Below, in pieces: positions 4,001-63,959 of a stretch of 64,000 bases of DNA. The notes beneath the pieces are model-generated. The model saw only the letters and a list, made by a program, of their open reading frames with translations. It did no database searches and had not been told where the DNA came from. Both the position numbers and the translations under genes were made by a program. The DNA is taken from assembly GCA_011033025.1 (NCBI GenBank), contig WFMF01000160.1, forward strand, positions 186,001 through 250,000, given 5' to 3'. The stretch is from Beroe forskalii. Lineage: Eukaryota; Ctenophora; Nuda; Beroida; Beroidae. How positions within the stretch are numbered: position 1 is the first letter of the stretch; each line of letters starts with the position of its first letter.

Positions 4001-4009
4001 TTGATTCGG

Positions 4010-4720: not shown

Positions 4721-5262
4721 TTTTAGTATCTACGGAGCAGCAAGGTCTAAATGAGTCACAAAAAGGAGTGGTGTACAGACATTCCAAAACCTACCTATAA
4801 GAATGTTTTCTTAAATAACATTTTCATTTTAGCCTACAAATAGAGCAGGTGTGCCATAGGTTTTTAGGTATTTATTAAGACTGGTATATATTTTGAACTG
4901 TGTCTTAAATATAGGTATTTAGTGTATGGCACACTTTATCTTGAGAAATAATTAATTAATTTTCAGGGTGCTTAAATCATAGTAGCTTTTCAGGGTGCTT
5001 GAATTATAGTAGCTTTTTATGAGGTAGGCCCCCAAACTAGTTGCCCATGGTACCATGTGCTATAATTTATATGATATGACATGAAAAATAAAATTTCTTT
5101 CACTAAAGTATAACACTGTAGTTGAGTGAAACAAAATTCAAAATACCAATACTCAATATATGCTCAAGATCCTTGTGTTATTAAATCTTGTTAGATGTTA
5201 AACCAATTTGAATCTATTTACGTTACTACTTTTGATCTTTCATATCTCAAGGTCTCAGCAGT
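4721..5262 (+). other. Region upstream of the PKA regulatory subunit, with a short tandem duplication
   Basis: AT-rich sequence expected to contain the 5' UTR and promoter of the downstream gene. No TATA box or initiator can be assigned with confidence. A 27-bp unit (TTCAGGGTGCTTRAATYATAGTAGCTT) occurs twice in tandem at about 4963-5017. A CTCAG just before the start codon could be a splice acceptor of an upstream UTR intron. Confidence 0.3.
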
Positions 5263-5638
5263 ATGTCAAACTCACCATTTACTATACCTGATGGCTTCCC
5301 TGAACTCTTACAAGACTTCACTGTATCAGTTCTCCGAGAACGTCCAGCTGATGTGGTTGAGTATGCTGTGGTCTACTTCACTGACCTTGCAAACCAAAGA
5401 AACCCAAATCGACAACAAGTCTCCTCAAGTAATGGTGTTGTTGATCATATCCCCAAGGAAGAATCATCAACTACAGTAATTGAAAACCTTGAGGAGAAAG
5501 TTCCAGAAAAAAGATCTGGAGTGAAATTCCAAGATGAAGCAGAAGACATTGCAGATGAGGATGAGCCTCCTGAGGGAGCTCCTGCTCCCCTCATTGATGT
5601 TTCAAAGATTTCTAATGATGATGTTTACTCAGATGAAG
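5263..5638 (+). CDS. PRKAR2: PKA RII exon 1: docking/dimerisation domain and acidic linker
   Basis: ATG at 5263 starts [19 protein letters not shown], followed by a [20 protein letters not shown] helix pair. This matches the RIIa dimerisation/docking fold that binds AKAP amphipathic helices. Residues 50-125 are Asp/Glu/Pro-rich linker. The exon ends GATGAAG before GTAAGA, after one base of a codon. This is the first ATG in frame, and it gives the usual short N-terminus before the docking domain. Confidence 0.95.
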
Positions 5639-26600: not shown

Positions 26601-29600
26601 AGAAATACATTTCAGATTTGAAGTGAAATGTTAACGTACTACGATAATAATATGCTAGCTCGATACTAGCTACGTTGATAATTTTCATGATGAGTCAATA
26701 ATTTCTATCGGCATACGCCATTTTTGGTAGGGGGAAAGTGGGAATATTTTTCAACAATTCCTTTAATTTTGCACCACATAAATATCCCTAGCAGCCGTAA
26801 AATTGCTGGTTGTCCGTGTCAAACGGCAAACAGTTGTTAAAGTTAGTTCACTGTGCAAATTGTGCTGGAATTTATTTATTACTTCATAAGTCCGAGCATT
26901 GTACTCCATTTTCTATTGAGCTTCAATTTTCAAAGTGATTCATGAGTGTGTTATATGTACATTTGACACTCAGCCAAATTATTTAACAGTCCGAATGCTT
27001 GATGACGAGCTGACGACTTCTGCAGGAGTGAATAGTAATTTGTAAATATCTTTATATCTTTAGTTCTTAATGACCGCCATTGTCTTTCAGGCTGGAAGTA
27101 AAAGTTGTTAACATTCAGGCTAGAAGTACATGTTAACGTCAATGTGATTATGTTAGTTCATCAATGTGATTATGTTAACATTTTATTTACTCCCTCGTCT
27201 TACCATTCAGGTGATACACCCTAAATCAGATGAGCAACGGAAACGGTTACAGAACGCTGTTAAAGATATCTTAATTTTCAAAAGTCTTGATCAAGAACAG
27301 AGAGAATACGTACTGGACGCCATGTTCGAGAAAACGGTGCGTTCTTGAATTATTTGATTTGTTGAATTATTGAAACACTAAACTTTAAAATTTCGGATTG
27401 GTTCTCGAAATATTTGGGGATTGAAGCACTTCATCCCCTTCAAACCATAAAAGCATAAATCGGGCGCCCTGTCAAACCATGGGAAACAGATTCTTAAATG
27501 TGCGCATGCTCTAGGAATTTTATTTCCATTTCCTTCTCATGTTACACAAAGTCAAACCCTACTGTATGTGTCTTGATATCTGTCTGCGAATTTACTTCCA
27601 TTGCTACCCGAGCAATGGGCAAGGGGATACAAAGGAAAGTATTCTATGACCAACCCATTGGGAAAGTATTCTATAACCAAGCTCAATACCCAAACATCCC
27701 CAAAAGGGGAGTATCCACTATTATATCCGGCGAGTCTAGGCAGGTTAAATCTGACTTGTTTATGTTCCTATAGGTACCGTCAGGAGAAAAGGTCATCGAA
27801 CTGGGAGACGATGGGGATTACTTCTATGTCGTGGACAGGTATATCATTAAAACAGAATGTTTTCCCATAGCACGTTTGACGAATCAGCGGGCAGGATTTA
27901 TATGATACTAGTTACTACACACTGATTGATCGACCCATGAATCGCTGTATTTAAACTATTGCAGCATCGCCATTTATTATTTTATTTCCAGAAAAAGATT
28001 TTCCTGTTGGCAATTTATTTGCTTTCATATAACTAACTTTCATATACTTGTTATGTGGCTCTGGGCAGTTTTTGAGGAATATATTGAAACCCGTCCAATT
28101 TCAGTGGCAAACTCGACTGTTATATCAAGATAAATGGAGAAGAGAAGAAGGTAATTCTCTCTCAATTACTAATTAAATGATTAATTAACGATTAAATTTC
28201 AGAACCCCAAGTTACGCGGCTGGGCTGATCGGCGTGATCGCGACCCCCCCCCCCAAGAATTTAGAATTTGACAATTATTTCAGAAATGATGATTTGAGGA
28301 AAGCAAGTCAATCATATTTTGCAACCCCCCCCAGAATTAGAAATGGTGATTTATATGAAACCAAGTCAATTATATTTTTTGCATCCCCCCCCCAAAGAAT
28401 TGGAAATGATGATTTGAATAAAACCAAGTCAATTATATTTTGCGACAAAATAATTCTCTAACATGACACTTAATACGATACCAAATCAATTATATTTTTG
28501 CGAACCCTAACTTACGCGGCTGGGCTGATCGGAGTGACCGCACCCCCCCCCATAATTTAGAATTTGATTATTACAGTATTTCAGGAATGATGATTTGAGG
28601 AAAGCAAGTCAATCATATTTTGTAACCCCCCCCCCCCAGAATTAGAAATAGTGATTTTTTTGGAGTTTGCCAAAAAAAGTGTTTGCCAAAGTTTGCCATA
28701 GTTTGCCAAAGTTTGCCAAAATTTGCCAAAGTTTGCCAAAAATAACCCAAAAATTTTGTAATTTCTGATTTCTTGTCCACAGTGCAAATAGGACGTGTGC
28801 ATAATGGTTTTCAAACTTTCAAAGGAGCTAAATCGATATCCAATGCTTAATTTTCATTCAGACCTTCTCCTTCGAGGCTTTACGCCTGGACCTTCCCTCT
28901 TTAGGCACCATACTGTTTACAGAAAGGTATCCTTAGGCTGAAGGACCAGGGTTATAAATTCCGAGAGTCTTTTCGTTCGAGAAAAGAGATGTTTATAATT
29001 CCCAGGCATGGAAACATGTATCTACTATCTACTTATCTTTAACCAGTTCATCAGATAACGTGTCTTCGGCAAAATGGTACCACAGGAACATGACCAAAAT
29101 TAGCCTGCATTAGTATCCATGGGTCCGGAGGCTGAGTGTAGGGTAATTTCAAAAATTTGCCCATGAGCCTCCATTGAGGCTCATGGTTGCAATAGTCTAA
29201 TTTTCGAAAAAAAAGCCTCCGCTGTTGTGGCTAAAAAGCGCCCACTAGCTTCCATTAGCCTCCACTCAACCTCTATTGAGGCTAAAATTTTGATTTAGCC
29301 TCCACTGAAGAATAATCCTCCATTAGCCTCCACTGAAACATAACATTTTCGTAGAGGCTAAAGCTTTAATATGGAGCCTAATGGAGGCTAGTGGATGCTA
29401 TACGGAGGCTCACTGGAGCTGAATCTGATAAAATGTGCACTTATTTAGTAATTTGAAAAACAATTTATAGATTCAAACTTTCAGATAGCTCCAACTATCC
29501 TCCACTAGGCACCACTCAGCCGCCACTAGGCACCACTCAGCCTTCACTCGGCTCCACACAGCCACCACTAGGCTCCACCCAGCCTCCACCAGGCTCCAAC

Positions 29601-32600
29601 CAGCCTCCACTAGGCTCAACTCGGCCTCCACTAGGCTCCACTCAGCTTCCACTCAGCCTTCACCAGGCTCCACTCAGCCACCACTAGGCGCCACTCCGCC
29701 TCCACTATGCTCCACACAGCCTCCACTAGACTCCAGACAGCCTCCACTAGCCTCCAGACAGCCTCCACTAGGCTCCAAACAGCCTCCAATAGGCTCCACC
29801 CAGCCGCCTCTAGCCTCCACACAGCCTCAACTAGGCTCCACACAGCCTCCACTAGACTCCAGACAGCCTCCACTAGGCTCCACACAGCCTCCACTAGGCT
29901 CCACACAGCCTCCAATAGGAGCCAGAGAGCCGCTTCTAGGCTCCACACAGCCTCCACTAGGCTCGACACAGCCACCACTAGACTCCAGACAGCCTCCACT
30001 AGGCTCCAGACAGCCTCCAATAGGCTCCACAGAGACTCCAATAGGCTCCACGTCACAGCCTCCACACAATCTCCACTAGGCTCCACTCAGCCTCCAAGAG
30101 GCTCTACACAGCCTCCACTAGTTTCCACCAGTCTCCAGACAGCCTCCACTATGCTCCACTCAGCCTCTACTAGGCTCCACTCAGCCTCCACTGGGCTCCA
30201 CACAGCCTCCACTACTATAAAGTGAAGACTGAGTGGAGCCTAGTGGAGAGTGTTTGGAGCCTAGTAGAGGCTGAATGGAGCCTCGTGGAGGCTGAGTGGA
30301 GCCTAGTGGACCACTAGTCTCTACGGCCTACCGACAAGTGCGCACATAAGAATCTTTTTCCCACGGTCTAACAGGGTGGCCTGTCAATGATTTGAGTTGA
30401 GTGAGCACTTCAGATGCTGAAAACGACAACTGCGCAATGGAGGCTGTGTGGAGCCCAGTAGAGGCTGAATGGAGCCTCGTGGAGGCTGAGTGAGCATAAT
30501 CTGAGTGTAGTCTAGTGGACCACTAGTCTCTACAAAGCTCCACAATAGGCTTCACACACAGCCTCCACAGCCTCCATTAGGCTCTACACAACCTCCAATA
30601 GACTCCAGTCAGCCTCCACTAGGCTCCACACAGCCTCCACTAGGCCCCAACCAGCCTCCACTAGGCTCCACACACCCTCCAATCAGGCTCCAATCAGCCT
30701 CTTCTAGGCTCCACTCAACCTCAACTCAACCTCCACACAGCCTCCACTACTAGTGAAGGCTGGGTGGAGCCTATCGTAGAGTGGTCGGAGGCTGAATGGA
30801 GCCTAGTGGAGCCTAATGGCTCTGCAAAGCCTCCACTAGGCTCCATAATCGTAGAGTGGTCGGAGGCTGAATGGAGGCTCCATTCAGCCTCCGACCACTC
30901 TACAATTATGGAGCCTAGTGGAGCCTAGTGGAGCCTAAGGGCTCTGCAAAGCCTCCACTAGGCTCCAAACAGCCTCCATTAGGCTCTACACAGCCTCCTC
31001 TCAACCTCCACTGGGCTCCAAGCAGCCTCAACTACTTGTGAAGGCTGAGTGGAGCCTAGTGGAGGATGAGTGGAGGCCGAGTTGAGCCTTGTGGACCACT
31101 AGGCTCCACACAGCTTCTACTAGGCTCCGCTCAGCCTTCACTAGGCTCCGCGCAGCCTTCACTAGGCTCAACACAGCTTCTACTAGGCTCTACAAAGCCC
31201 CCACTGGGATCCACTCAGCCTTCACTAGGCTCCTCAGAGCCTCCAATAGGCTCCACATTGCTACACACAGCCTCCACTCGGCTCCACTTAACCTTCACTA
31301 GGAAATTAGCATTCTCAACATGTCGGGTTATGTTGCATGAATCCATGGAAACTGCCCAATGGTCACGGTGGGGCCTTACTATTGATTTTATGCTGCAGTA
31401 TCAGACTTATGTAGTGTGGATGCTTCGGTTTTAGGGCTTCATACAACAGTTTGATCGGACTACTTAGTACTTGAATGCATAAAACTTAAATTATGAGGTA
31501 ATGAAATATAGTATTTGTTACTGTAGCCCTCTACTCTATTCAATGTGGATGTAGTCGCTGTTACAGCTTCTGGATAACGTCAAAATGTGAAACAGACCTT
31601 GGGAATCGATTCAGCATCTTTGAAAAGCATATTATGGGTACCTAAAGTGTTGCCAAAGTGGCTAAAAAGGTTTTTTATTTTTGGCAAACTTTGGCAAACT
31701 TTGGCAAATGCTTCCACTTTTTTTGGAGTTTGCCAAAAAAAGCGGCTCTTAATAGGTCCGACAGTCCATGTTCAAACTGTACCAAGTAGCGGAGTCCACC
31801 GCCCCGTTACCATTCTTCTTATTCTTCAAGCTGCACGTGGAAGTGTACGGGTTGAAGGAGATGGCCTTGCAGCCCTCGGTATCCCTGCAGAACTGCTGGC
31901 ACACCTGGTGGAGACGCATAGAATTTTATACGAATTTTCAAACGCCTGTTTAATGAACTTCCCCTAGTCGGATTTTCATAAAACTTGGTAAAACCGTGCA
32001 GGTTGATAAGTGATAACTTCAAATGAATTGCCAAATAGTTTATCAAAAGCTCTTTTTATCCCAATTTTATTGACAGATCATCAATTAAATTCGGAACGTC
32101 GTCCTATTCGTCTCTACTAACCTTGATAGTGGGCGTGGTCCGACTGCTGATCTCCGCCCCCTTGAACTCCTTCCTATCTTCTCCGCACACGTTCCAGTAG
32201 TCGTCATTATTGTCACAGTTCGAGTTAGGAACGTTAGCGCTCTTGAAACCGGACGCTAGGTAGGGTCCACTGGCGCCACCACGTCTACTCTTCAGCGTGC
32301 AGCTAGACCTGTAGGCCTGGTAGGGGAAAACAACCGGTTAACCGAACAGAAATACCGGCTTACCGGGCATCTTTAGCTAACCGAAACCTTAACCGGATAT
32401 TAATAAAGAAATGGTAACGGATCGTTTACTTACATAGAAGGTGATGGCTTTACACCCGGGGGTGGTGATGCAGAGGCCCTCGCATTCCTCAAAAGAGTAT
32501 AGTGTGGCGAAGGAGATGTCGGCCCCCTTGTAGTCGTAGCCCTCCCGTTGACACCGTGACCAGGCAGACACTTGGGAGACGAGGAGAAGGAGGGAGATGT

Positions 32601-35600: not shown

Positions 35601-38600
35601 TCCGGAAAGTGGTAATAACGCATCCTGTGGCAATTATTTGACAATTATCATATTATTTTGTGTTGTGTAATGAATGTATGTCTCGGTGTATGTAGTTTTC
35701 GTCTATTACAATTTTGGTCATTGACGTCCTTTTAAAAGCCTTTTCCGCCCCCTCCCTTGCCTTCCCTTTTACCTTCCCTTTTCCCCGTCTATGGAAATGG
35801 CTAAACCCCCCGGTTATTCGGTTTTTCTGTCATATTTCTGAAAAATGTCCTTGAGCATAATTGCTCTTAAATTTGTAACTTTATCCAGGGATTTAGGTGG
35901 CTTCAACACATGTGTCATATATTCAATGTCAGAAAATTATGAAGTACTGAAGAATAATGATGTAACGTAAATACTTTATGTTACATTTCGAATAGTATAA
36001 TGCCTGCAGAAGTACTAAAGATTAACGATTAGGTAATACAATGGGTGACTCAAGTATAGTGCGTTGTAAACTATGATATCTAGAAAATTCCATGGTTAAT
36101 TTGTCTGACATCCTGTCGATCAGAGCAGTTCCCGCAGTATCTCAATCCATCTCGCTCATGTCAAACGGGCTAATCTCAATTCTCAGGAAACAGGAACGCT
36201 ATTATCGGTAGCATATCCATTCTTCACTTCTGTAACTTCATCTAATAGATGTACAATCTTTCAGGGCAGCCACGATAATGTCAACGGAAGAGTGCGTGTT
36301 ATGGGCCCTTGACAGGACGACCTTCAGACAACTCGTGCTCCTGACGACCATGAAGAAGCGGGAAATGTACGAGTCCTTCCTCAACGCCATACCGCTCCTC
36401 CAAGAATTAGAGGTAGTGTATGATATTTATTATAGAGACGAAGGTTTGGTAGTTTTTACCCACAGTGTCTGGCATGGCTCGACCAATAAGCTGTGGAGTA
36501 TTGTGCGAATACTGGGCGTTGAATGGTCAAGCCTCAACGTACTGTGGGTAAATTAATATATAAAACTCCTCGAGGTACTATATCTAAACGAGAGATTCGT
36601 GTGAGAGAGCTGTGTTATGTCATCGTGCTCAACTCTGCACGGAACGTAGGATATAGACGGTTCATATTACTGCTTTGTGCTATGATAATGACGACATCAC
36701 AACCGCCTATCAATACCAAGCGCGCGCGTGCTGTACATCTTTAGCTGTATATAATTATGTTGAATATATTATGTTTAGAGCTTAATTTCAGAGTTCAGAC
36801 AAATATTATTTTCCTCTAATAAGCCTCTTGAGATTCATCTGATCATCATGTGGAAAGGAATGAAGGTGGAGGCTTTTCTTTGAAGTTCAGATCCACACAT
36901 GATGATTATCAAGGGACAGCGCAGTGCCGGTTCCATGTTATTGGAAATATGTGGCATTCGACATATCCCAGGAAGTATTCATTCCGGCATAAATTGAAAA
37001 TCCCCCAAATTTGGTGCATCACGTTACGAGGAATTAGGAATTAGGAATCTCGTTATTGAACTTAAGCTATGAAATTATGTGGGGGGAAGCGCACATGGGG
37101 CGGGATGAGAAGGATTTGGGTGTTGAATTCCTCTTGAATTCTCCTAGAATTCCTCTGAATAGCAAATGAAATTCGCAATAATCAGGTTGATTTCCGCCGC
37201 CCATTCTCTGAGTGAAGAATGTAATAATGTAAGAAATATGTAGGAGGCACAGCAGGGGGCCTTTCTCTCTGCAGTGTGAATGACATTTCTGACATTATCA
37301 GGAGTGTCAAATTGTCCGAATAAATTTAAAAGGAAATGTAAAATGACAGATAGAGTTCCGTCAGTGTATTATATTGATGGGTTTGTGTAATTGTTAGATG
37401 TTTAGTGATGTAACTGCGACATATCTGAGTTGTCTGGGTAAATTCTTTTTTGACAATTTGCGTCTTCAAGTTTATACATGTATCGTGACTACGATAAATA
37501 AACTTTCTGTTGTTTATTTATTTCGAATGCCGTCATTCGCCAGCAACTGTCAGGAACTCTCCACTTTCTCCCGTCACTCTTGACATATAAATGGGAATGT
37601 GGCCGCCACACTTCACTACACCCAGCACCCCATTTAAGGGTAAATTTAATGGGGTGCTGCTCCTTTGCTTGCTGAGCTCCTTTGTCAAGGGAGGAACATT
37701 GTCAGCACCCCGAGCACTGAAACTGGGCGGTTTAACGTCATCAACGTGCCACTTTGAGATATGATGGTGACGTCATTCCATAGTGTATTTCCCTTTGTAA
37801 GTATTGTTGAGGAGCATATGTGCCTCGCCTATTGTAAGGAGCATCTGCCTTACTTTTTGGTATTTCGTAATTCTTATTTACCTCAGCACAGTCAGATCAA
37901 TATATAAAAGAGCAGAGATTTTCATATCTTTTTCATGCAAAAGATTACGATCAAAAAGCTCTTTGGATTTACTGTTGATAAAATTCATGTTTAAGTCGAC
38001 GAGTAATATATTTCTGCATTATATCGTCCTTCCCAATCGTTTCAAGGCCCTCTTTTTCATCTGATGAAACGGAATACTCCAGAATTTTCAGTCTGTTCTT
38101 TCAGCCTTCTCAATGATAAATTACATCATATGATTGATCTCACACCATTTTCCATCCATTTCCGAAGCGATAAGTTAACAACTTAACGAGGTAAACAGTG
38201 TCACTTAATGTGGCTTCATCCTGCGAACAAGAAAAGTCTCACAAGTGCCGATAATGATGCGTTAAATCACTCATTGTTTCATTGACCGGGTTATTATGGG
38301 TCTTCTTCTAGTACAAACAACACCTAGCACTAGATGTTGTTGTATAATGTTCGTTTGAGTGGTCATTTTCTCAATCTTTACACTTTTTAAAGAGCAGCCA
38401 TTTCACTTCATTTTAAACACTTGTTCCACTTCATTCAGAATGATTTGAATTTCTGAAACCTTATTTCAATTGATTCTAGCCACGTTTCAATTCATTCTAG
38501 ACACCTACTTTACTCACGCGCATCGGTTTTTCACACAGCAGCTGTTGTACGGTATTCCAGTTTTTCATGTTGCCATCTTCACACGCCCATTCTTCGAATG

Positions 38601-44477: not shown

Positions 44478-45380
44478 GGGGCCAACCCCCATAAACCCCC
44501 GGTGGATATCGAAAAATGGCAAATGGGGGTTTAATTTTTGGGGTTTATGGGGTTTATGGGGGAACTTAATCAGTTAAATTTTGCTGTATTATGACTTTTT
44601 TTGGCTTTTGGAATGGTACCATTTTTGTTGAGATTTTCGACCCTTTCGAAATGGTACCATTTTTGTTAACATTCAACCCTTTTCTGAAATGGTACCATTT
44701 TTGTTGCGTATTTTCGAACCTTTTCTGAAATGGTACCATTTTTGGCCCTCTTCAAAAGTACCATTTTTCGTTGATGATTTTCGACCCTTTTTGAAATGGT
44801 ACCATTTTTTGTTGATTTTCGAACCTTTTCTGAAATGGTGCCATTTTGGCCCTTTTCCGAAATGGTACCATTTTTCGTTGATGATTTTCGACCCTTCTGA
44901 AATGGTACCATTTTAATTAAGGATTTTTCGCCTTTCTGGAAATGGACAATGGTACCAATTTTGTTGACGATTTTCGACCTCTTTTGAAATGGTACCATTT
45001 TTTCGTTGATGATTTTCGACCCTTTTCTGAAATGGTACCATTTTTTGTTGACGATTTGTGACCCTTTTTGAAATAGTACCAATTTTGTTGATGATTTTGA
45101 CCCTTTTCTGAAATAGTTTTAGGCACTGTTGAACAATTTTCAACCCTTTTCTGAAATGGTACCATTTTTTAGAGATTTTTGGCTTAACTTTTCTTCCTTT
45201 CTTTGCTTCTTAGTTTAACACCATCTTTAAATTGAGCAAGGATCGCTAGAATTAAACATTTTCACCAAAATTGAGGCATTTTGTTTGAAATTTTGACATT
45301 TGGAAATGGTACCTGGAAAATTAAACCCCATAAACCCCCAAGTGGATATCGAAAAAGGCAAATGGGGTTAAATTTTTTTA
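44478..45380. repeat. GGTACC minisatellite flanked by a G-rich repeat
   Basis: Some fifteen units of 40-60 bp of the form CTGAAATGGTACCATTTTTGTTGATTTTCGACCC, each containing the palindrome AAATGGTACCATTT. The array (44610-45175) is bordered on both sides, in direct orientation, by CCCCATAAACCCCC then GTGGATATCGAAAAA. Gln/Lys-rich minus-strand ORFs over it are artefacts. Confidence 0.85.
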
Positions 45381-52449: not shown

Positions 52450-52556
52450 ATGTCTAAGCAGAGTCGATTCTTTGCTCAGCTGGGTGATAGCACTGATGAT
52501 AGTTCATCATCTGATAATGAGGCAGAAGTCCAAGTCACCAAACAGCCTGCTGCAAG
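52450..52556 (+). CDS. EIF3C: eIF3c exon 1
   Basis: ATG at 52450 (GTCATGTCT context), 35 codons plus two bases: [35 protein letters not shown]. Donor GTGTGT. The last 23 nt are repeated at 55513-55535, at the start of the second segment copy. Confidence 0.92.
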
Positions 52557-55500
52557 GTGTGTACTTCAGGCAAACTGAATTCTTTATAAAGAAATTTCAT
52601 TTTTATATTTTTTTGTTTTTTCTGCTAGTATGTGTTCTTACAGGTGAAATATGGACAACTAACCTAAAGATCTGGTTTTTATATCACTATACTTGACTCT
52701 TTGTGTTTCACTCGACTACAGTGTAATACTCGACTACAGTGTAATACTTGCATATCACTATACTTGGCATAATAGAAATTGGCAGATTGTACCTATTTTC
52801 TACAGCCTATAAAATTGTTTCTTTGGTGTGTGATGCCAAATGGACCAATCAGATGGTTGTATCTGATATTGCCAACATCAGATACAACAGTTTGATTGGT
52901 CTAATTGGTATCACACACAAAAGACTCACATGATAAGCTGTGCTGTTTAACATGACAATTGATTGATATCTCCAATTCAGGCAGTTCTCATCCCTCTTGG
53001 AGGATTCAGATGAGGAAAAAGGGTAGTGAAGTTCCAAAGACAAGAGGTTTTCAGAAATTAATGAAACCATAAAAGCGATAAGGAATCATAAGAAAATAAA
53101 AGACATTGCCAAGGTTCAGGAAGGTAAGAAATACACCTCAAACCTATAGATATGAAATTGAAAATAAAATTTTTGTTTCCTTCTGAAAATTTTGTGTTTC
53201 ATTCTCTATACTACTAAATCATTTGAGAATTCCGATGACTTTAAAATGACTTCCAATGACGCTTTCTGTGTTTCGCCAACATCACTGAACGTATTTTCAG
53301 GTTTTACAAGCCTGTGTCAGATCTACTCCAAGTCTCAGAATGTTATTGCTAAGAATGGGTGTCCACGAGCCTTCATCAGATGTATTGCTGATCTAGAGAC
53401 TTATATCAAAGAGGTAAGTTACATACTCCCAATTCTCTACATTCGTCATTTTTCTGCAATATTATTGTCATCAAATTGCAAAGTAATTTCGAAACAGCGT
53501 CAGTACTCAGTGCTTGAAGTGCCCACTAGGTCTCCGTTTAGTTGTTTGTTAGAAATACAGATAGATTTAATTCAACTTTACTCTCAGTTTTGGGAAGACA
53601 AAGATGGCAGAGGAAAACTCAATAAGATTAATTCGAAGGTGAGCCGTGAGTAAATGATATTAGATCTGATAATTATTGGTAATACTTATAGTGTGCTCGG
53701 AAAAGATTGACAGTGCAATGTTCTGAAGAAAAGAGGCAATCCATTCATCCATCTTTTTCAAATATAATTGTATCTTAGTATTTATTTGCTTATTCAATGA
53801 ACCGCATCGTTTCAGGCTCTGGCTGCTCTCAGGCAAAACGTCAGAAAATATAACAAGGATTTTGTCACTGAAATCGAGGCATATCAGAAGGTTTGTTTTA
53901 AGTTCAATGTATCATTGTTACATCAAATGACTATATGAAGTAAGAGTCGCCAATTTAACGTTTTTTTTGTAACAACTGTTAACTGTACCACCAATACAAA
54001 ATGTACAATACAAACTCACAATGTATACCAGGATCCAGACAGTTACGAAGTGATAGAAGAAGACGAAGAGGAGGAAGGTTTGACTTTAAAAATTTTTTCT
54101 AGGAAAATAGGTTTGGATATTGAGCCTAGCCTGAACTAACACTGTTATGTGGTGACCAGCATACTTCATAGCCACCTTCGGCTGATCTGACTTAATAGTT
54201 AATCTGCAGGCAAGCCTTGACTTGCATTGCAGACACAAGTGTTAGTGGACCACACCTGCGTGTTTCAGAACTGGTGTTCTGATCTCTGCCCATTCGAGTG
54301 GACCTGATATCAGGCCATCTCCGGAGTTCGCGCCTAGTTAGCCCAGTGTAAGGTCGCTCAGCACGACCTGCCGACCTTGACGTTTTTCTGCGCCTGTCAC
54401 TAAGTTTTATTAGTACACAACACACGGAATGATCAAGACCATCAATGTGATTCATTTTATATATCTAGCTCATGGGACAGAGGATTTGGCTAACTCCTTC
54501 TGACAGACCCGTCACTGTAGGACATTTTATGGTCTTCTGATTCGTGTCATCTGAAGGAAGGATGGGGCCATTTGGAGGAAGGTTAGGGTCTTCTGGTTCG
54601 TGTAGTCTTGAGAAAGGGCAGAGTCATCTTCAGGAATCTGGAAGAAGGGTGAGTCTTCTGGTTCGTGTCATCTGGAGGAAGGGTGAGTCTTCTGGTTCGT
54701 GTCGTCTGGAGGAAGGGTGGAGTCTTCTGATTCGTTTCATCTGGAAGAAGGGTGGAGTCTTCTGGTTCGTTTCATCTGGAAGAAGGTGGAGTCTTCTGGT
54801 TCTTGTCAACTGGAGAAAGGGTGGAGTCTCCTGGTTCGTGTCGTCTGGAGGAAGGGTGGGGCCTTCTGGTCCATGTCATCTTGCAGAGTCATTTTCAGGA
54901 ATTTGGAAGAGGGGTGGTCTTTTGGTTCGTGTAGTCTGAATAAAGGGTGAGGTTTTTTGGTTCATGAGGCTATCAATGTGGTTCATTTACAACAGCATGT
55001 TAGCATGTATATCTAACTCATGGGACAGAGGATTTAGCTAAATCCTTCTGACAGACTTTTTGATAAAGAAAATCAGCATGAACAGAGCATTGAACTCAAA
55101 TACCTACAAAGTAGCCCAGTTAGCTAGCTGCAGCCCATAATGCGAAGGATGCCACTACAAGCTACTCCGACGTGAGTGATATTATAAAGGCAGTTGATCG
55201 AAAAAGTGACATACATACGACGACGACCAATTTCAGCACACCACCTATTTCAGATTTAACAGTACGCGTAAAAGGTAGTATACACACGCCCCACAAAACA
55301 CGATCTCTGCTAACCTATTCTCAATGCCTTTTGCAAAACAAAAACGTGATTGGAACAGGAAATAATATATGGGCGACAATAAGTATTCCTGCAGAGTTAT
55401 AAACGTGATCATGACCGAATGTTCATTATGGCTATGCGATGATGACACACCTGCTACACTTACTGAATCCAAGTTTGCGTATTTCGGGCACAGACATTAA

Positions 55501-58500
55501 TGGCAATTAATGGTCACCAAACAACCTGCTGCAAGGTGTGTACTTCAGGCAAACTGAATTCTTTATAAAGAAATTTCATTTTTATATTTTTTTGTTTTTT
55601 CTGCTAGTATGTGTTCTTACAGGTGAAATATGGACAACTAACCCAAAGATCTGGTTTTTATATCACTATACTTGACTCTTTGTGTTTCACTCGACTACAG
55701 TGTAATACTCGACTACAGTGTAATACTTGCATATCACTATACTTGGCATAATAGAAATTGGCAGATTGTACCTATTTTCTACAGCCTATAAAATTGTTTC
55801 TTTGGTGTGTGATGCCAAATGGACCAATCAGATGGTTGTATCTGATATTGCCAACATCAGATACAACAGTTTGATTGGTCTAATTGGTATCACACACAAA
55901 TGAGATCACATGATAAGCTGTGCTGTTTAACATGACAATTGATTGATATCTCCAATTCAGGCAGTTCTCATCCCTCTTGGAGGATTCAGATGAGGAAAAG
56001 AGGGTAGTGAGAAGTTCCAAAGACAAGAGGTTTTCAGAAATTAATGAAACCATAAAAGCGATAAGGAATCATAAGAAAATAAAAGACATTGCCAAGGTTC
56101 AGGAAGGTAAGAAATACACCTCAAACCTATAGATATGAAATTGAAAATAAAATTTTTGTTTCCTTCTGAAAATTTTGTGTTTCATTCTCTATACTACTAA
56201 ATCATTTGAGAATTCCGATGACTTTAAAATGACTTCCAATGACGCTTTCTGTGTTTCGCCAACATCACTGAACGTATTTTCAGGTTTTACAAGCCTGTGT
56301 CAGATCTACTCCAAGTCTCAGAATGTTATTGCTAAGAATGGGTGTCCACGAGCCTTCATCAGATGTATTGCTGATCTAGAGACTTATATCAAAGAGGTAA
56401 GTTACATACTCAATTCTCTACATTCGTCATTTTCTGCAATATTATTGTCATCAAATTGCAAAAGTAATTTCGAAACAGCGTCAGTACTCAGTGCTTGAAG
56501 TGCCCACTAGGTCTCCGTTTAGTTGTTTGTTAGAAATACAGATAGATTTAATTCAACTTTACTCTCAGTTTTGGGAAGACAAAGATGGCAGAGGAAAACT
56601 CAATAAGATTAATTCGAAGGTGAGCCGTGAGTAAATGATATTAGATCTGATAATTATTGGTAATACTTATAGTGTGCTCGGAAAAAGATTGACAGTGCAA
56701 TGTTCTGAAGAAAAGAGGCAATCCATTCATCCATCTTTTTCAAATATAATTGTATCTTAGTATTTATTTGCTTATTCAATGAACGCATCGTTTCAGGCTC
56801 TGGCTGCTCTCAGGCAAAACGTCAGAAAATATAACAAGGATTTTGTCACTGAAATCGAGGCATATCAGAAGGTTTGTTTTAAGTTCAATGTATCATTGTT
56901 ACATCAAATGACTATATGAAGTAAGAGTCGCCAATTTAACGTTTTTGTAACAACTGTTAACTGTACCACCAATACAAAATGTACAATACAAACTCACAAT
57001 GTATACCAGGATCCAGACAGTTACGAGGAAGTGATAGAAGAAGACGAAGAGGAGGAAGGTTTGACTTTAAAAATTTTTTTTCTAGGAAAATAGGTTTGGA
57101 TATTGAGCCTAGCCTGAACTAACACTGTTATGTGGTGACCAGCATACTTCATAGCCACCTTCGGCTGATCTCCGACTTAATAGTTAATCTGCAGGCAAGC
57201 CTTGACTTGCATTGCAGACACAAGTGTTAGTGGACCACACCTGCGTGTTTCAGAACTGGTGTTCTGATCTCTGCCCATTCGAGTGGACCTGATATCAGGC
57301 CATCTCCGGAGTTCGCGCCTAGTTAGCCCAGTGTAAGGTCGCTCAGCACGACCTGCCGACCTTGACGTTTTCTGCGCCTGTCACTAAGTTTTATTAGTAC
57401 ACAACACACGGAATGATCAAGACCATCAATGTGATTCATTTTATATATCTAGCTCATGGGACAGAGGATTTGGCTAACTCCTTCTGACAGACCCGTCACT
57501 GTAGGGACATTTTATGGTCTTCTGATTCGTGTCATCTGAAGGAAGGATGGGGCCATTTGGAGGAAGGTTAGGGTCTTCTGGTTCGTGTAGTCTTGAGAAA
57601 GGGCAGAGTCATCTTCAGGAATCTGGAAGAAGGGTGGAGTCTTCTGGTTCGTGTCATCTGGAGGAAGGGTGGAGTCTTCTGGTTCGTGTCGTCTGGAGGA
57701 AGGGTGGAGTCTTCTGATTCGTTTCATCTGGAAGAAGGGTGGAGTCTTCTGGTTCGTTTCATCTGGAAGAAGGGTGGAGTCTTCTGGTTCTTGTCAACTG
57801 GAGAAAGGGTGGAGTCTCCTGGTTCGTGTCGTCTGGAGGAAGGGTGGGGCCTTCTGGTCCATGTCATCTTGCAGAGTCATTTTCAGGAATTTGGAAGAGG
57901 GGTGGTCTTTTGGTTCGTGTAGTCTGAATAAAGGGTGAGGTTTTTTGGTTCGCCAGGCTATCAATGTGGTTCATTTTACAACAGCATGTTAGCATGTATA
58001 TCTAACTCATGGGACAGAGGATTTAGCTAAATCCTTCTGACAGACTTTTTGATAAAGAAAATCAGCATGAACAGAGGGGAGGGGGTAAGGCAAACTTTGG
58101 CAAACTATGGCAAACTTTGGCAAACACTTTTTTTGGCAAACTCCAAAAAAAGTGGAAGCATTTGCCAAAGTTTGCCAAAGTTTGCCAAAAATGAAACACC
58201 TTTTTAGCCACTTTGGCAACACTTTAGGTACCCATAATATGCTTTTCAAAGATGCTGAATCGATTCCCAAGGTCCGTTTCACATTTTGACGTTATCCAGA
58301 AGCTGTAACAGAGACTACATCCACATTGAATAGAGTAGAAGGCTACAGTAACAAATAGTATATTTCATTACCTCATAATTTAAGTTTTATGCATTCAAGT
58401 ACTAAGTAGTCCGATCAAACTGTTGTATGAAGCCCTAAAACCGAAGCATCCACACTACATAAGTCTGATACTGCAGCATAAAATCAATATTAAAGGCCCC

Positions 58501-61500
58501 ACCGTGACCATTGGGCAGTTTCCATGGATTCATGCAACATAACCCGACATGTTGAGAATGCTAATTTCCTAGTGAAGGTTGGGTGGAGCCGAGTGGAGGC
58601 TGTGTAGCAATGTGGAGTTTTATTGGAGGCTCTGAGGAGCCTAGTGAAGGCTGAGTGGATCCCAGTGGGGGCTTTGTAGAGCCTAGTAGAAGCTGTGTTG
58701 AGCCTAGTGAAGGCTGCGCGGAGCCTAGTGAAGGCTGAGCGGAGCCTAGTAGAAGCTGTGTGGGAGCCTAGTGGTCCTGGTTCAACTCGGCCTCATCCTC
58801 CACTAGGCTCCACTCAGCCTTCACAAGTAGTTGAGGCTGCTTGGAGCCCAGTGGAGGTTGAGAGGAGGCTGTGTAGAGCCTGATGGAGGCTGTCTGGAGC
58901 CTAGTGGAGGCTTTGCAGAGCCCTTAGGCTCCACTAGGCTCCATAATCGTAGAGTGGTCGGAGGCTGAATGGAGCCTCCATTCAGCCTCCGACCACTATG
59001 ATTATGGAGCCTAGTGGAGGCTTTGCAGAGCCATTAGGCTCCACTAGGCTCCATTCAGCCTCCGACCACTCTACGATAGGCTCCACCCAGCCTTCACTAG
59101 TAGTGGAGGCCGTGTGGAGGTTGAGTTGAGGTTGAGTGGAGCCTAGAAGAGGCTGATTGGAGCCTGATTGGAGGGTGTGTGGAGCCTAGTGGAGGCTGGT
59201 TGGGGCCTAGTGGAGGCTGTGTGGAGCCTAGTGGAGGCTGACTGGAGTATATTGGAGGTTGTGTAGAGCCTAATGGAGGCTGTGTGAGTGTGTGAAGCCT
59301 ATTGGAAGCTTTGTAGAGACTAGTGGTCCACTAGACTACACTCAGACTATGCTCCACTCAGCCTCCACGAGGCTCCATTCAGCCTCTACTGGGCTCCACA
59401 CAGCCTCCATTGCGCAGTTGTCGTTTTCAGCATCTGAAGGCCGTAGAGACTAGTGGTCCACTAGGCTCCACTCAGCCTCCAAGAGGCTCCATTCAGCCTC
59501 TACTAGGCTCCAAACACTCTCCACTAGGCTCCACTCAGTCTTCACTTTATAGTAGTGGAGGCTGTGTGGAGCCCAGTGGAGGCTGAGTGGAGCCTAGTAG
59601 AGGCTGAGTGGAGCATAGTGGAGGCTGTCTGGAGACTGGCGGAAACTAGTGGAGGCTGTGTGGAGCCTCTTGGAGGCTGAGTGGAGCCTAGTGGAGATTG
59701 TGTGGAGGCTGTGTGGAGCCTAGAGGCGGCTGTGTGGAGCCTATTGGAGTCTCTGTGGAGCCTATTGGAGGCTGTCTGGAGCCTAGTGGAGGCTGTCTGG
59801 AGTCTAGTGGAGGCTGTGTGGAGCCTAGTGGAGGCGGAGTGGAGCCAAGTGGAGGCTAGTGGAGACTGTGTGGAGGCTGTGTGGAGCCTAGAGGCGGCTG
59901 TGTGGAGCCTATTGGAGTCTCTGTGGAGCCTATTGGAGGCTGTCTGGAGCCTAGTGGAGGCTGTCTGGAGTCTAGTGGTGGCTGTGTGGAGCCTAGTGGA
60001 GGCTGTGTGGAGCCTAGAAGCGGCTCTGTGGCTCCTATTGGAGGCTGTGTGGAGCCTATTGGAGGCTGTCTGGAGCCTAGTGGAGGCTGTCTGGAGTCTA
60101 GTGGAGGCTGTGTGGAGCCTAGTGGAGGCTGTTTGGAGCCTAGTGGAGGCTGTCTGGAGGCTAGTGGAGGCTGTCTGGAGCCTAGTAGAGGCTGAGTGGA
60201 GCATAGTGGAGGCTGTCTGGAGACTGGCGGAGACTAGTGGAGGCTGTGTGGAGCCTCTTGGAGGCTGAGTTGAGGCTGTGTGGAGCCTAGTGGAGATTGT
60301 GTGGAGGCTGTGTGGAGACTAGTGTAGGCTGTGTGGAGCCTAGTGGAGGCTGTGTGGAGCCTAGTGGACTAGTGGAGGCTGTCTGGAGTCTAGTTAGGGC
60401 TGTGTGGAGCATAGTGGAGGCGGAGTGGCGCCTAGTGGAGGCTGAGTGGAGCCTAGTGAAGGCTGAGTGGAAGCTGAGTGGAGCCTTGTGGAGCCTAGTG
60501 GAGGCTGTCTGGAGTCTAGTGGAGGCTGTGTGGAGCCTAGAGGAGGCGGAGTGGAGCCAAGTGGAGGCTAGTGGAGACTGTGTGGAGGCTGTGTGGAGGC
60601 TGTGTGGAGCCTAAAGGCGGCTGTGTGGAGCCTATTGGAGTCTCTGTGGAGCCTATTGGAGGCTGTCTGGAGCCTAGTGGAGGCTGTCTGGAGTCTAGTG
60701 GAGGCTGTCTGGAGCCTAGTGGAGGCTGTCTGGAGTCTAGTGGTGGCTGTGTGGAGCCTAGTGGAGGCTGTGTGGAGCCTAGAAGCGGCTCTGTGGCTCC
60801 TATTGGAGGCTGTGTGGAGCCTAGTGGAGGCTGTCTGGAGCCTAGTGGAGGCTGTCTGGAGTCTAGTGGAGGCTGTGTGGAGCCTAGTTGAGGCTGTGTG
60901 GAGGCTAGAGGCGGCTGGGTGGAGCCTATTGGAGGCTGTTTGGAGCCTAGTGGAGGCTGTCTGGAGGCTAGTGGAGGCTGTCTGGAGTCTAGTGGAGGCT
61001 GTGTGGAGCATAGTGGAGGCGGAGTGGCGCCTAGTGGTGGCTGAGTGGAGCCTGGTGAAGGCTGAGTGGAAGCTGAGTGGAGCCTAGTGGAGGCCGAGTT
61101 GAGCCTAGTGGAGGCTGGTTGGAGCCTGGTGGAGGCTGGGTGGAGCCTAGTGGTGGCTGTGTGGAGCCGAGTGAAGGCTGAGTGGTGCCCAGTGGCGGCT
61201 GAGTGGTGCCTAGTGGAGGATAGTTGGAGCTATCTGAAAGTTTGAATCTATAAATTGTTTTTCAAATTACTAAATAGGTAAGTGCACATTTTATCAGATT
61301 CAGCTCCAGTGAGCCTCCGTATAGAAGCCACTAGCCTCCATTAGGCTCCATATTAAAGCTTTAGCCTCTACGAAAATGTTATGTTTCAGTGGAGGCTAAT
61401 GGAGGATTATTCTTCAGTGGAGGCTAAATCAAAATTTTAGCCTCAATAGAGGTTGAGTGGAGGCTAATGGAAGCTAGTGGGCGCTTTTTAGCCACAACAG

Positions 61501-63959
61501 CGGAGGCTTTTTTTCGAAAATTAGACTATTGCAACCATGAGCCTCAATGGAGGCTCATGGGCAAGCCCTGAAATTACCCTACACTCAGCCTCCGGACCCA
61601 TGGATACTAATGCAGGCTAATTTTGGTCATGTTCCTGTGGTACCATTTGCCGAAGACACGTTATCTGATGAACTGGTTAAAGATAAGTAGATAGTAGATA
61701 CATGTTTCCATGCCTGGGAATTATAAACATCTCTTTTCTCGAACGAAAAGGCTCTCGTAATTTATAACCCTGGTCCTTCAGCCTAAGGATACCTTTTTGT
61801 AAACAGTATGGTGCTTAAAGAGGGAAGGTCCAGGCGTAAAGCCTCGAAGGAGAAGGTCTGAATGAAAATTAAGCATTGGATATCGATTTAGGCTCCTTTG
61901 AAAGTTTGAAACCATTATGCACACGTCCTATTTGCACTGTGGACAAGAAATCGTGAAATTACAAAATTTTTGGGTTATTTTGGCAAACTTTGGCAAATTT
62001 TGGCAAACTTTGGCAAACTATGGCAAACTTTGGCAAACACTTTTTTTGGCAAACTCCAAAAAAAGTGGAAGCGTTTGCCAAAGTTTGCCAAAGTTTGCCT
62101 TACCCCCCCCCCCAACAGAGCATTGAACTCAAATACCTACAAAGTAGCCCAGTTAGCTAGCTGCAGCCCATAATGCGAAGGATGCCACTACACCAAGCTA
62201 CTCTGACGCGAGTGATATTATAAAGGAGCAGTTGATCGAAAAAGTGACATACATACGACGACGACCAATTTCAGCACACCACCTATTTCAGATTTAACAG
62301 TACGCGTAAAGGTAGTATACACACAACCCCCACAAAACACGATCTCTGCTAACCTATTCTCAATGCCTTTTTGTAAAACAAAAACGCGATTGGGAACAGG
62401 AAATAATATATGGGCGACAATAAGTATTCCTGCAGAGTTATAAACGTGATCATGACCGAATGTTCATTATGGCTATGCGATGATGACACACCTGCTACAC
62501 TTACTGAATCCAAGTTTGCGTATTTCGGGCACAGACATTAATGGCAATTAATGGTACAGACAATCTTTATTATATGAAAGTTTCTGGTACAGACATAACT
62601 TAATGGCAATTTTGAACACAATTTTCCTAAGCCCGCATAGGTGTGTGTACGCGCGCGGCGCTTCCCTACGGGGGAAGCGCGCCGCGCAACGCAGACAGGG
62701 ATATACGTGTTTAGCAAAACACAATTGTGCGTACGGCATAATTTGTAGAGGAATCCGGTAAAGTTCTCGATAATTTTGGGCTTGAACATCTGCTGCGGTC
62801 ACACTTTTATTTCGACTTCGTGTACGGCGCTGTGACGTTATTGTATAGAGACATGATTTTTGATGCGCGGCTTAGCGGGTTTTTGCGACGCGCGCGCGTG
62901 AGGCCAGGACTGTTCGAATTATTGTGAAATCTCGTTCATCAGACGCTGGAATTCTGACTTCAGCAGGTTTGGGGTGCTTTACTGCTTTGAGATCCAAGTT
63001 ATATGCTAATATTTGTTGATAAATAAATACTGTCAGCATTAGCCCGTAATTTCACTTACTTATAATGTCTTGCATGATCGGAAATTTGTTTGGAAAGATA
63101 GGAATGCGTTGTTTCAATTCCAATGTCCTATACCCCTTATAACCTTTCAGAAGCATCGGAAGATGAAGGCGACGCCCCTGGCCCTGCACAAGCAACCGCT
63201 CCCAAAGTCCACAAGAGATCGCACACATCGGTGAGTGTTCAGTGTGTTTGCTAATGAGGTTAGCATTGAGGGGATTTCTGAAGAAACGTTCCGAAAACTT
63301 CATCTTACCAAGGCAATATTTCATTCATGTACCTGACCTCTGCCAACAAATTCTCAATCTCATTCATATTAAGGGGATTAAGGGCATATTCTCATAGGAA
63401 CCTGAAATTGTCTTGGCATTGGCCATTCAAAGCTTACTGTAAACTCGAGCAATGATTAGTCAATGGTTATGACGTACTATAATAATGACGAGGAGGCCAA
63501 CTTAAATCCCCCAGTCGCAACTAAAACCCCCCAGTCGCGTGGTTTGGATGACGACGAAGACTTCTCTGACGACGACAGTGACGACATGTGGGACGACAGT
63601 GAGGACGAGAGTTCGTCAGATGACGAGGTGCCCGCCATCGGGTACACCGCCGCCTACTTCCTCAAGAGGTATGCGGATTTTCGAACCCAACTGTGAAATC
63701 TTGGTATTATTTTAGTAATATTTTGTGGCGTTTTTACTGAATTTAGCACCATGTACTGTTTTATATTTTACTTGCTAGGAATTTGAATAGAATTGTGTTT
63801 AAGTCTGCAACTATTTACTCTAAGCCTCATCTCAGAAAAGACAGCGATAAGAAGGATAAGCCTGACCGGAAGAAGAAAGCCCCCCGACAACAAGCCGCTA
63901 AGCCTGCCGCTGAGGATGAGGGATGGACCACTGTCAGTGGCACTGACAAAGTCGCTAAG
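52450..63959 (+). CDS. EIF3C: Eukaryotic translation initiation factor 3 subunit c, N-terminal part, spliced, runs off the window
   Basis: Gene-level entry: exon 1 (52450-52556), exons 2-6 present twice (52981-54077 and 55961-57058), then exons 7-9 (63151-63230, about 63535-63668, 63836-63959). The product is a core subunit of eIF3, which binds the 40S ribosome and recruits eIF1 and eIF5 in start-codon selection. Landmarks: acidic Ser-rich N-terminus [67 protein letters not shown], and acidic and Lys-rich stretches ending [12 protein letters not shown], in the family order. The PCI domain lies beyond 64000. A simple reading is exon 1, then exons 2-6 of the second copy (intact), then exon 7. 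The first copy has a stop in exon 2. Confidence 0.92.
52981..53123 (+). pseudogene. EIF3C: eIF3c exon 2, first copy, frame-broken
   Basis: Starts [12 protein letters not shown] like the second copy, but reads GAAAAAGGGTAG where the other reads GAAAAGAGGGTA, and is two bases shorter again just after. The result is a stop after DEEKG. Either a degenerated exon or consensus errors in one haplotype. Confidence 0.75.
53301..53413 (+). CDS. EIF3C: eIF3c exon 3, first copy
   Basis: Between GTATTTTCAG and GTAAGT. Encodes [37 protein letters not shown]. Same sequence as 56284-56396. Confidence 0.85.
53588..53638 (+). CDS. EIF3C: eIF3c exon 4, first copy
   Basis: Between TACTCTCAG and GTGAGC. Encodes [17 protein letters not shown], the family's WEDK motif. 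Confidence 0.85.
53816..53890 (+). CDS. EIF3C: eIF3c exon 5, first copy
   Basis: Between CGTTTCAG and GTTTGT. Encodes [20 protein letters not shown] followed by EAYQK, matching the AL-LRQ--RKYN-DF block of eIF3c. Confidence 0.85.
54032..54077 (+). CDS. EIF3C: eIF3c exon 6, first copy
   Basis: Between TATACCAG and GTTTGA. Encodes [15 protein letters not shown], one Glu codon shorter than the second copy. Ends after one base of a codon. Confidence 0.8.
54530..54965 (+). repeat. 35-bp minisatellite, first copy
   Basis: About ten units of GGAGTCTTCTGGTTCGTGTC followed by ATCTGGAGGAAGGGT, within eIF3c intron 6. Unit lengths vary by one or two bases. The Ser/Gly/Arg ORFs over it in three frames are repeat artefacts. 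Counterpart at 57519-57953. Confidence 0.92.
55961..56106 (+). CDS. EIF3C: eIF3c exon 2, second copy, intact
   Basis: Between TCCAATTCAG and GTAAGA. With the last two bases of exon 1 it reads [20 protein letters not shown], then [20 protein letters not shown] and [20 protein letters not shown] is strongly conserved in eIF3c. Confidence 0.93.
56284..56396 (+). CDS. EIF3C: eIF3c exon 3, second copy
   Basis: Between GTATTTTCAG and GTAAGT. Same peptide as the first copy ([20 protein letters not shown] and following). Confidence 0.92.
56569..56619 (+). CDS. EIF3C: eIF3c exon 4, second copy
   Basis: Between TACTCTCAG and GTGAGC. Encodes [17 protein letters not shown]. Confidence 0.92.
56797..56871 (+). 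CDS. EIF3C: eIF3c exon 5, second copy
   Basis: Between CGTTTCAG and GTTTGT. Encodes [20 protein letters not shown] followed by EAYQK. Confidence 0.92.
57010..57058 (+). CDS. EIF3C: eIF3c exon 6, second copy
   Basis: Between TATACCAG and GTTTGA. Encodes [16 protein letters not shown] and one base of the next codon, which exon 7 completes as Glu or Gly in frame. Confidence 0.9.
57519..57953 (+). repeat. 35-bp minisatellite, second copy
   Basis: Same array as 54530-54965. Several units here keep GGGTGGAGTC where the first copy has GGGTGAGTC or GGTGGAGTC. Confidence 0.92.
58077..62113 (-). mobile_element. Foldback-type minisatellite transposon, copy B, complete with 7-bp target duplication
   Basis: Bounds come from comparison with the empty site near 55071: AACAGAG at 58070-58076 and again at 62114-62120. 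The ends are a G run plus TAAGGCAAACTTTGGCAAAC and its complement with a C run. Each end then contains repeated TTTGGCAAAC units around a hairpin CTTTTTTTGG/CCAAAAAAAG, so each tip can fold on itself. Inside are unique flanks (58200-58570, 61240-61960) and 2.6 kb of 21-bp minisatellite with a palindrome at 58928-59007. No transposase is present. Composite inverted ends of direct subrepeats recall foldback elements; superfamily unassigned. Confidence 0.9.
58570..61235. repeat. 21-bp minisatellite inside transposon copy B
   Basis: GGAGCCTAGTGGAGGCTGTGT units, longer than in copy A by roughly 0.85 kb. A higher-order repeat is visible: 59695-59860 resembles 59875-60000 and 60590-60760. ORFs up to 220 codons (minus, 59542-60204) exist only because the period is 21. 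Confidence 0.95.
62650..62692. repeat. GC-rich palindrome
   Basis: GCGCGCGGCGCTTCCC, loop TACG, then GGGGAAGCGCGCCGCGC. The core GCGCGGCG is shared with the hairpin MITEs at 33795 and 35102. More CG-rich sequence follows at 62860-62900. It is in eIF3c intron 6. Confidence 0.75.
63151..63230 (+). CDS. EIF3C: eIF3c exon 7
   Basis: Between CCTTTCAG and GTGAGT. Completes the exon 6 codon, then [26 protein letters not shown]. Acidic-to-basic linker. Confidence 0.85.
63535..63668 (+). CDS. EIF3C: eIF3c exon 8 (5' border uncertain)
   Basis: Encodes [44 protein letters not shown] and two bases, then GTATGC. The acceptor CCCCCCAG at 63534 is chosen because it keeps exon 7's phase. The frame stays open upstream to 63463, so a longer exon is possible. 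Asp/Glu/Ser acidic tract followed by the YFLKR motif of eIF3c. Confidence 0.85.
63836..63959 (+). CDS. EIF3C: eIF3c exon 9
   Basis: Between CATCTCAG and GTATGC. Encodes [41 protein letters not shown]. The Lys-rich block and W-TV follow the family. The gene continues right of the window. Confidence 0.9.

Follow-up and report, generated by a model that had tools for sequence, protein, structure and literature searches.

The present study asks how a long block of 21-bp satellite, switching orientation along its length, came to lie in an intron of an eIF3c-like gene of the ctenophore Beroe forskalii. The window, by which we mean the whole stretch of 64,000 nucleotides analyzed (C204:186001-250000), was set against a genome of 216 Mb in 1134 contigs. 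We regard it as highly probable that the feature belongs to a family of non-autonomous DNA transposons with foldback tips, here called T, into an ancestor of which a second transposon, S, nested once before the nest spread.

The insertion and its hairpin tips

The insertion site occurs twice in the window, filled and empty. Both are housed in a tandem duplication of about 3 kb, in which 52534-55087 and 55513-58076 are 98.7% identical and the downstream parts, 55081-55514 and 62114-62555, are 96.6% identical; its eIF3c-like exon matches Pfam PF05470 at E 7e-5 (21.8 bits, just below the cut-off of 24.2). The filled site reads GCATG AACAGA / GGGGAGGGGGTAAGGCAAAC ... GTTTGCCTTACCCCCCCCCCC / AACAGA GCATTG, with slashes at the ends of the element, and the paralogous eIF3c copy reads GCATG AACAGA GCATTG, with a single AACAGA at 55081-55086. 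The clean transposon insertion in an eIF3c intron proposed by a sequence-only reading of this DNA is borne out by this exact paralogous empty site, which that reading had recognized but placed near 55071; the insertion is genuine and flanked by a target duplication. Read directly, the window copy of T spans 58076-62113 with AACAGA on each flank (58070-58075 and 62114-62119). The sequence permits the 7-bp duplication suggested at first, AACAGAG at 58070-58076, but the 6-bp form is preferred because it leaves the 10-base end GGGGAGGGGG, as in many other T copies.

Inward from the left duplication come the terminal G-rich run GGGGAGGGGG (58076-58085), the left tip (58086-58192, plus strand), a non-satellite arm of the outer element, type 1 (58193-58570, plus strand), and the 21-bp satellite body with its orientation reversals (58570-61651), which derives at least largely from a nested S element. 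The surviving end of that S element (TGTTCCTGTGGTACCATTTGCC on the plus strand) occupies 61630-61651 on the minus strand and is followed by the right non-satellite arm, common to copies at the S junction (61652-61978, plus strand), the right tip ending in GTTTGCCTTA (61979-62102, plus strand) and a terminal C run, poly-G on the opposite strand (62103-62113). Duplications, terminal runs and satellite body are given without strand. The ends of poly-G plus TAAGGCAAAC that had been described for this element were confirmed both here and in other genomic copies. Among listed copies a terminal G-run like that of the window copy is missing only in L030 and L035 on the left side and in L033 on the right, and its length differs between copies, reaching 34 in L013.

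Each tip of the window copy is a long hairpin built of 10-bp TTTGGCAAAC units, with the loop CTTTTTTTGGCAAACTCCAAAAAAAG in the left one. Predicted folding energies were -42.2 kcal/mol for the left tip against a shuffle mean of -15.8 (z -9.7) and -46.5 against -21.1 for the right (z -8.7), in both cases better than all 200 shuffles; foldback-like elements are characterized by just such inverted ends, which contain short tandem repeats and can fold back. The tips had been described as self-complementary arrays, and they do fold as hairpins, but the two are direct repeats of each other, and it is the arms of the hairpins that supply the inverted ends. In the window copy the direct alignment covers 98 bases at 99% identity, and direct outscored inverted alignment in 37/37 T copies (medians of 98 aligned bases at 97% and 93 aligned bases at 91%, respectively). 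The outermost 30-50 bases at the two ends of T are nevertheless inverted repeats, a consequence of the self-complementarity of each direct-repeat tip; the inner arms have neither G-run nor TAA. Type-1 tips do not group by element, with an identity of 0.960 between the left and right tips of one element and 0.961 across elements, and homogenization of tips within an element was not seen in type 1. Variant tips, in which GGGTAAGGCAAAC precedes a base that is not T, number only 3. Elsewhere in the window, at 3996-4716, an array of units of about 10 bp (GCTTGTTTCG and its complement) reverses orientation several times, a plan like that of the T tips.

Genomic copies and cargoes of T

The window element is one of many genomic copies of a real mobile element. 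An assembly search with the tip 15-mer TAAGGCAAACTTTGG gave 177 and 175 sites on the two strands, 352 in all, and the reversed-pattern control gave 0/0, so other copies with consistent ends do exist, as anticipated. Among the first 100 tips listed there were 34 inward-facing neighboring pairs, 2.4-7.3 kb apart. Fetched copies comprised 33 paired ones (the window copy being the 34th), seven single-ended ones, a 10.5-kb copy on C142 and two further copies of a second type. A strict flank test was applied to 37 copies (31 of type 1, the window copy, the C142 copy and four of type 2): the flanks matched over at least 5 bp in 28/37, compared with 27/1332 mismatched left-right flank pairs. Tabulated in this way, as had been proposed, the target duplications are short and mostly 6-7 bp (22 of the 28), with 17 of 6 bp, the mode, five each of 7 and 5 bp and one of 8 bp. 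Under the strict test nine copies lacked a match of at least 5 bp (L016, L023, L028, L030, L033, L035, L037, L040 and L052); under a looser one (n=34), in which G/C runs may overlap the duplication, only L030, L033 and L035 had none. Inverted ends with a target duplication of near-fixed length are as found in cut-and-paste transposons.

Several of these loci have features of their own. The C142 copy (L049/L050, C142:141700-152800) has the duplication GATCAA, and the type-2 copy L052 sits within a tandem array of 11/22-bp units. At about 1-500 of L024 a type-2 insertion breaks an open frame of about 160 codons that forms its left flank and has no significant Pfam match. Some frames beside the T tip of L045 may be fragments of a Polinton-type DNA polymerase.

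Tandem repeats made up on average 57% of T copies and 12% of their flanks (n=37). The window copy and 31/33 paired copies contain the 21-bp satellite, and copies differ in array length. For the window copy, the earlier account of a noncoding body held up, no gene being recognized in the satellite, as did that of an interior of 21-bp satellite with changes of orientation. Type-2 copies (L024, L034, L051 and L052) have homologous tips and a different 21-bp satellite, TTAGGAGTGTGATAGGCTTAC, with other minisatellites adjacent. Their hairpin stem is altered at both ends, in a form common to the two tips (AAATTTAGGGATTAATTT) and unlike type 1, and genome-wide the type-2 stem sites lay on the same strand in 23/24 neighboring pairs under 8 kb. 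Two of these copies, L024 and L034, resemble type-1 copies near the tips only. Homologous tips, as type 2 shows, also mobilize unrelated satellite cargo. In the C142 copy (10.5 kb) Tandem Repeats Finder (TRF) recognized three unrelated main arrays with periods of 21, 27 and 103 bp. A further insert lies inside the T copy L014, at about 1100-4640, with T-rich, seemingly inverted ends and 28-31-bp minisatellites; it is perhaps a third satellite-bearing element.

A second copy of the same element lies in the window at 28655-31743 on the minus strand, about 96% alike, with the outer arm of both tips missing and cut at the hairpin loops; no duplication of its flanks was seen by eye. It is possibly a product of end processing or hairpin cleavage. 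The two window copies and L031 form one group of close relatives. Among 35 type-1 copies, drawn from contigs C1-C245 only, identity of the non-satellite arms was 0.937 over 17 same-contig pairs versus 0.887 when shuffled (p 0.0005), and the nearest relative was on the same contig for 11/35 (p 0.0005, 2000 shuffles). Similar copies thus share a contig more often than chance, suggesting that movement may be partly local, and the differing duplications of L010, L011 and L012 indicate separate insertions. Exons resembling a protein kinase A regulatory subunit are also found in the window about 31 kb apart, at 5236-5664 and 36236-36556 (RIIa, E 2.3e-10; a weak cNMP-binding match, E 0.011, is below its cut-off).

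Among the tips and ends listed, no copy of T or S with a transposase came to light, nor did the autonomous relative between such ends that the sequence-only reading had proposed to look for. Long T copies (the 10.5-kb C142 copy, L014, L027, L051 and L052) were considered as autonomous candidates and contain satellites, with no transposase recognized by eye. The genome has 46 matches to MULE domains, none of them, by eye, inside listed T or S elements among the first 100 tips listed, and 35 to Merlin-like/IS1595 and 23 to hAT domains, none inside listed elements as judged by eye against the tips listed. Two of the 35 Merlin loci, L071 and L072, were fetched, and over 3.4 kb neither carries an end of T or of S. 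The P-type transposase PF21787, or RNase H domain, gave 0 matches, with control genomes equally silent, which limits any comparison with the P-superfamily element Galileo; the end sequence of T is presumably unlike that of Galileo. To our knowledge no target duplications are expected of Helentrons, and T and S both duplicate their target. As a non-autonomous DNA transposon of foldback-like form, T carries a second transposon within it.

The second transposon and the scatter of its satellite

Family S was discovered through satellite clusters positioned away from T tips, at L053, with a single S end only, and at L054, an S element of 1917 bp without a T tip, with ends GGCAAAATGGTACCACAGGAACACG and the duplication ACACACTA. 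Elements of this family are foldback, about 2 kb long, have ends GGCAAAATGGTACC and also stand free elsewhere in the genome. At no more than one mismatch the S end has 170 and 194 genome sites on the two strands (control 0/0). When 82 of 100 listed places were used, the 18 judged to be inside T copies being left out, 27/29 neighboring pairs under 4 kb faced each other at a median distance of 1.9 kb among the places listed. An exact 8-bp duplication abuts both ends in 11/13 fetched S copies (L054 and twelve more), again as found in cut-and-paste transposons; L065 has CTTTATAT on each side with two additional bases at the left, and L068 has no target duplication at its ends. The body is mostly 21-bp satellite folded back on itself; in 3/4 copies tested the arms pair at 76-81% identity over about four-fifths of its length, and the fourth, L061, showed only central pairing among its three longest matches. 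At 44612-45171 of the window a tandem array of about 38-40-bp units carries a palindrome, AATGGTACCATT, that recalls the GGTACC motif of S ends.

The sequence-only reading treated the satellite simply as the element's own cargo, and as stated this was not borne out: the satellite is the body of S, which has its own ends and 8-bp duplications and was very probably nested once in an ancestor of T. The interior of the window T copy matches free S copies up to the S end at 61630-61651; this likeness is detected from about 59319. In 27/38 loci tested the S end adjoins the same T sequence (GAAGACAC / GAAGACACGTTATCTGATGAAC or variants), and this argues for a single ancestral nesting that was then amplified. 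A shortened form of that T sequence is found at the S junction in L010, L011, L012 and L018. Distance from S end to tip was 408-470 bp in 25/27 of the loci, 589 in L022 and 710 in L041. Free S copies, unlike S ends inside T, adjoin differing sequences, and they have two matched ends, compared with one in T copies (in L041 two, both pointing the same way). Within 58070-58650 of the window copy neither the other S end, with up to 4 mismatches allowed, nor an 8-bp match to the S junction, with up to 1 allowed, was found, and the nesting is thus read from one end together with the interior that T and S have in common. The fetched copies included no type-1 T lacking satellite, as the form before nesting would be.

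Counts of the satellite suggest how far the two families account for its distribution. The satellite 20-mer GTGGAGCCTAGTGGAGGCTG has 3013 exact sites in the genome, with 336 in 34 T copies (9.9 each) and 142 in 13 S copies (10.9 each). End counts give about 176 T copies, half of the 352 tips, and about 140 S copies, i.e. half of 364 ends less some 80 guessed, from 18/40 loci, to be inside T. Together these would hold about 3300 exact 20-mers versus 3013 found, a rough figure given that satellite assembly may be incomplete. Because T and S copies already cover the 3013 sites, free arrays of the type-1 satellite need not be invoked, and transposition may explain nearly all of this satellite's scatter. 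The earlier suggestion that such an element could seed satellite arrays thus stands insofar as T and S spread satellite in kilobase pieces, but their copies account for the genomic count without free arrays. The type-2 satellite has 1356 exact 20-mers genome-wide, with 36 in four type-2 copies; this far exceeds what about 35 copies, estimated from 71 stem sites, explain, and most of these 20-mers therefore lie elsewhere. Both type-2 21-bp satellites occur together outside any T tip at L073 (C3:184700-187000), the one such locus read, with no element ends within 2.3 kb.

Alternative explanations and known systems

Under the nesting model, S would have inserted once into an ancestral T and lost one end, after which T spread the satellite. 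A transposase supplied in trans would bind the arrayed TTTGGCAAAC sites and cut at the G-run, the hairpin arms giving each direct-repeat tip an outward-facing sequence that could serve as an inverted end, and insertion would proceed through a staggered cut and its repair. An alternative, which we consider doubtful, is that the mobile unit is the hairpin tip of about 110 bp itself and that a pair in direct orientation mobilizes the DNA between, as in a composite transposon; satellite cargoes would then have been captured more than once, with types 1 and 2 as separate assemblies. This would suit the direct repetition of the tips, the unrelated cargo between homologous tips and the stem AAATTTAGGGATTAATTT that type-2 tips share and type-1 tips lack, as though duplication of a tip had founded each type, but it does not account for inner arms without G-run and TAA, for type-1 tips that are no closer within than between elements, or for the lack of any solo tip with two competent ends among the first 100 listed, where the closest inward-facing pair was 2353 bp apart. 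It is possible, though we think it unlikely, that the tip is a self-contained mobility module through which unrelated satellites, one of them an entire foldback transposon, became transposons at least twice. Each hairpin presents an outward arm, so that on such a reading a same-orientation pair of tips would make any DNA between them mobile; if true, this would parallel, in a eukaryote, the composite transposons of bacteria.

Growth of the satellite within T, as with the tandem repeats of Tetris, and later derivation of S from T would fit the variation of array length among T copies and has a precedent, in the available part of the source, in satellite arrays arising inside a foldback element (PMC4079207). 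We judge it improbable, given that the S end inside T coincides with the end where free S copies border on their 8-bp duplications and that free S has two matched ends against one in T copies, L041 excepted. Oyster has Helentron-like elements in which satellite repeats occupy the center (HINE); an element of this kind would have a similar plan of common flanks and different central tandem repeats, as far as the source describes it (PMC7492417), but target duplications and inverted ends in both T and S largely refute it, and we give it almost no weight. Satellite-rich, low-complexity ends and G-runs of variable length (34 in L013) might be expected if satellite arrays had been collapsed or misjoined in assembly; this is exceedingly unlikely in view of the exact paralogous empty site and of the differing flanks of 34 paired copies, whose duplications match in most cases. 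The nesting model is thus preferred. It bears on whether satellites are scattered by growth inside transposons or by carriage. For one satellite it offers an ordered series, in which free S comes first, then a single nesting in T and finally the dispersal of the nested form; other satellites travel in a second type of T. Direct-repeat hairpin tips are, in addition, an uncommon route to inverted ends.

No match to the T tip, S end or satellite strings was found in the published literature searched. In form T is foldback-like and, on the parts of the sources available, most like Tm1 (PMC3169594) and Tetris (PMC4079207). Tm1, a Mutator/foldback element of Meloidogyne, is described in the available text as having ends made up of short units in tandem (about 14 bp, versus 10 bp in T), short terminal motifs outside the repeats and several kinds of interior, some without transposase (PMC3169594). 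It differs from T, as there described, in its 9-bp duplications and in having elements with a putative transposase, whereas T has duplications of 6-7 bp, no transposase found and tips that are direct-repeat hairpins (PMC3169594). Tetris/DAIBAM of Drosophila virilis is, in the portion of the account available, likewise a non-autonomous foldback element with tandem repeats, a link to satellite DNA and no transposase found, but with repeats of about 220 bp inside inverted ends, 8-10-bp duplications and three complete copies (PMC4079207); T is set apart from Tetris so described by a satellite body that matches a second transposon. On the lengths given in those parts of the two papers (PMC3169594, PMC4079207), the duplications of T, with a mode of 6 bp against the 8-10 bp of Mutator, tell against placing it in that superfamily, but the same does not hold for S, for which 8 bp would be compatible. 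Galileo (P superfamily, Drosophila) resembles T in the available descriptions in its 7-bp duplications and internally repeated ends (PMC3688188, PMC3573991), and its ends are reported there to hold multiple binding sites for the THAP domain of the transposase (PMC3688188). Dada elements share 6-7-bp duplications with T; in the source as available, Dada-U6 and Dada-U1 are without terminal inverted repeats and the superfamily targets small-RNA genes (PMC3706591), unlike T, which has inverted outer ends and a window copy in an eIF3c intron. The Cg_HINE elements of the Pacific oyster are like T, so far as their available description goes, in having satellite-like arrays as the body of a dispersed element and common flanks around differing arrays, but are of Helentron type, T and S having instead target duplications and inverted ends (PMC7492417). 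The T/S arrangement is a variant of foldback elements already known, in which the satellite is carried by a transposon within a transposon.
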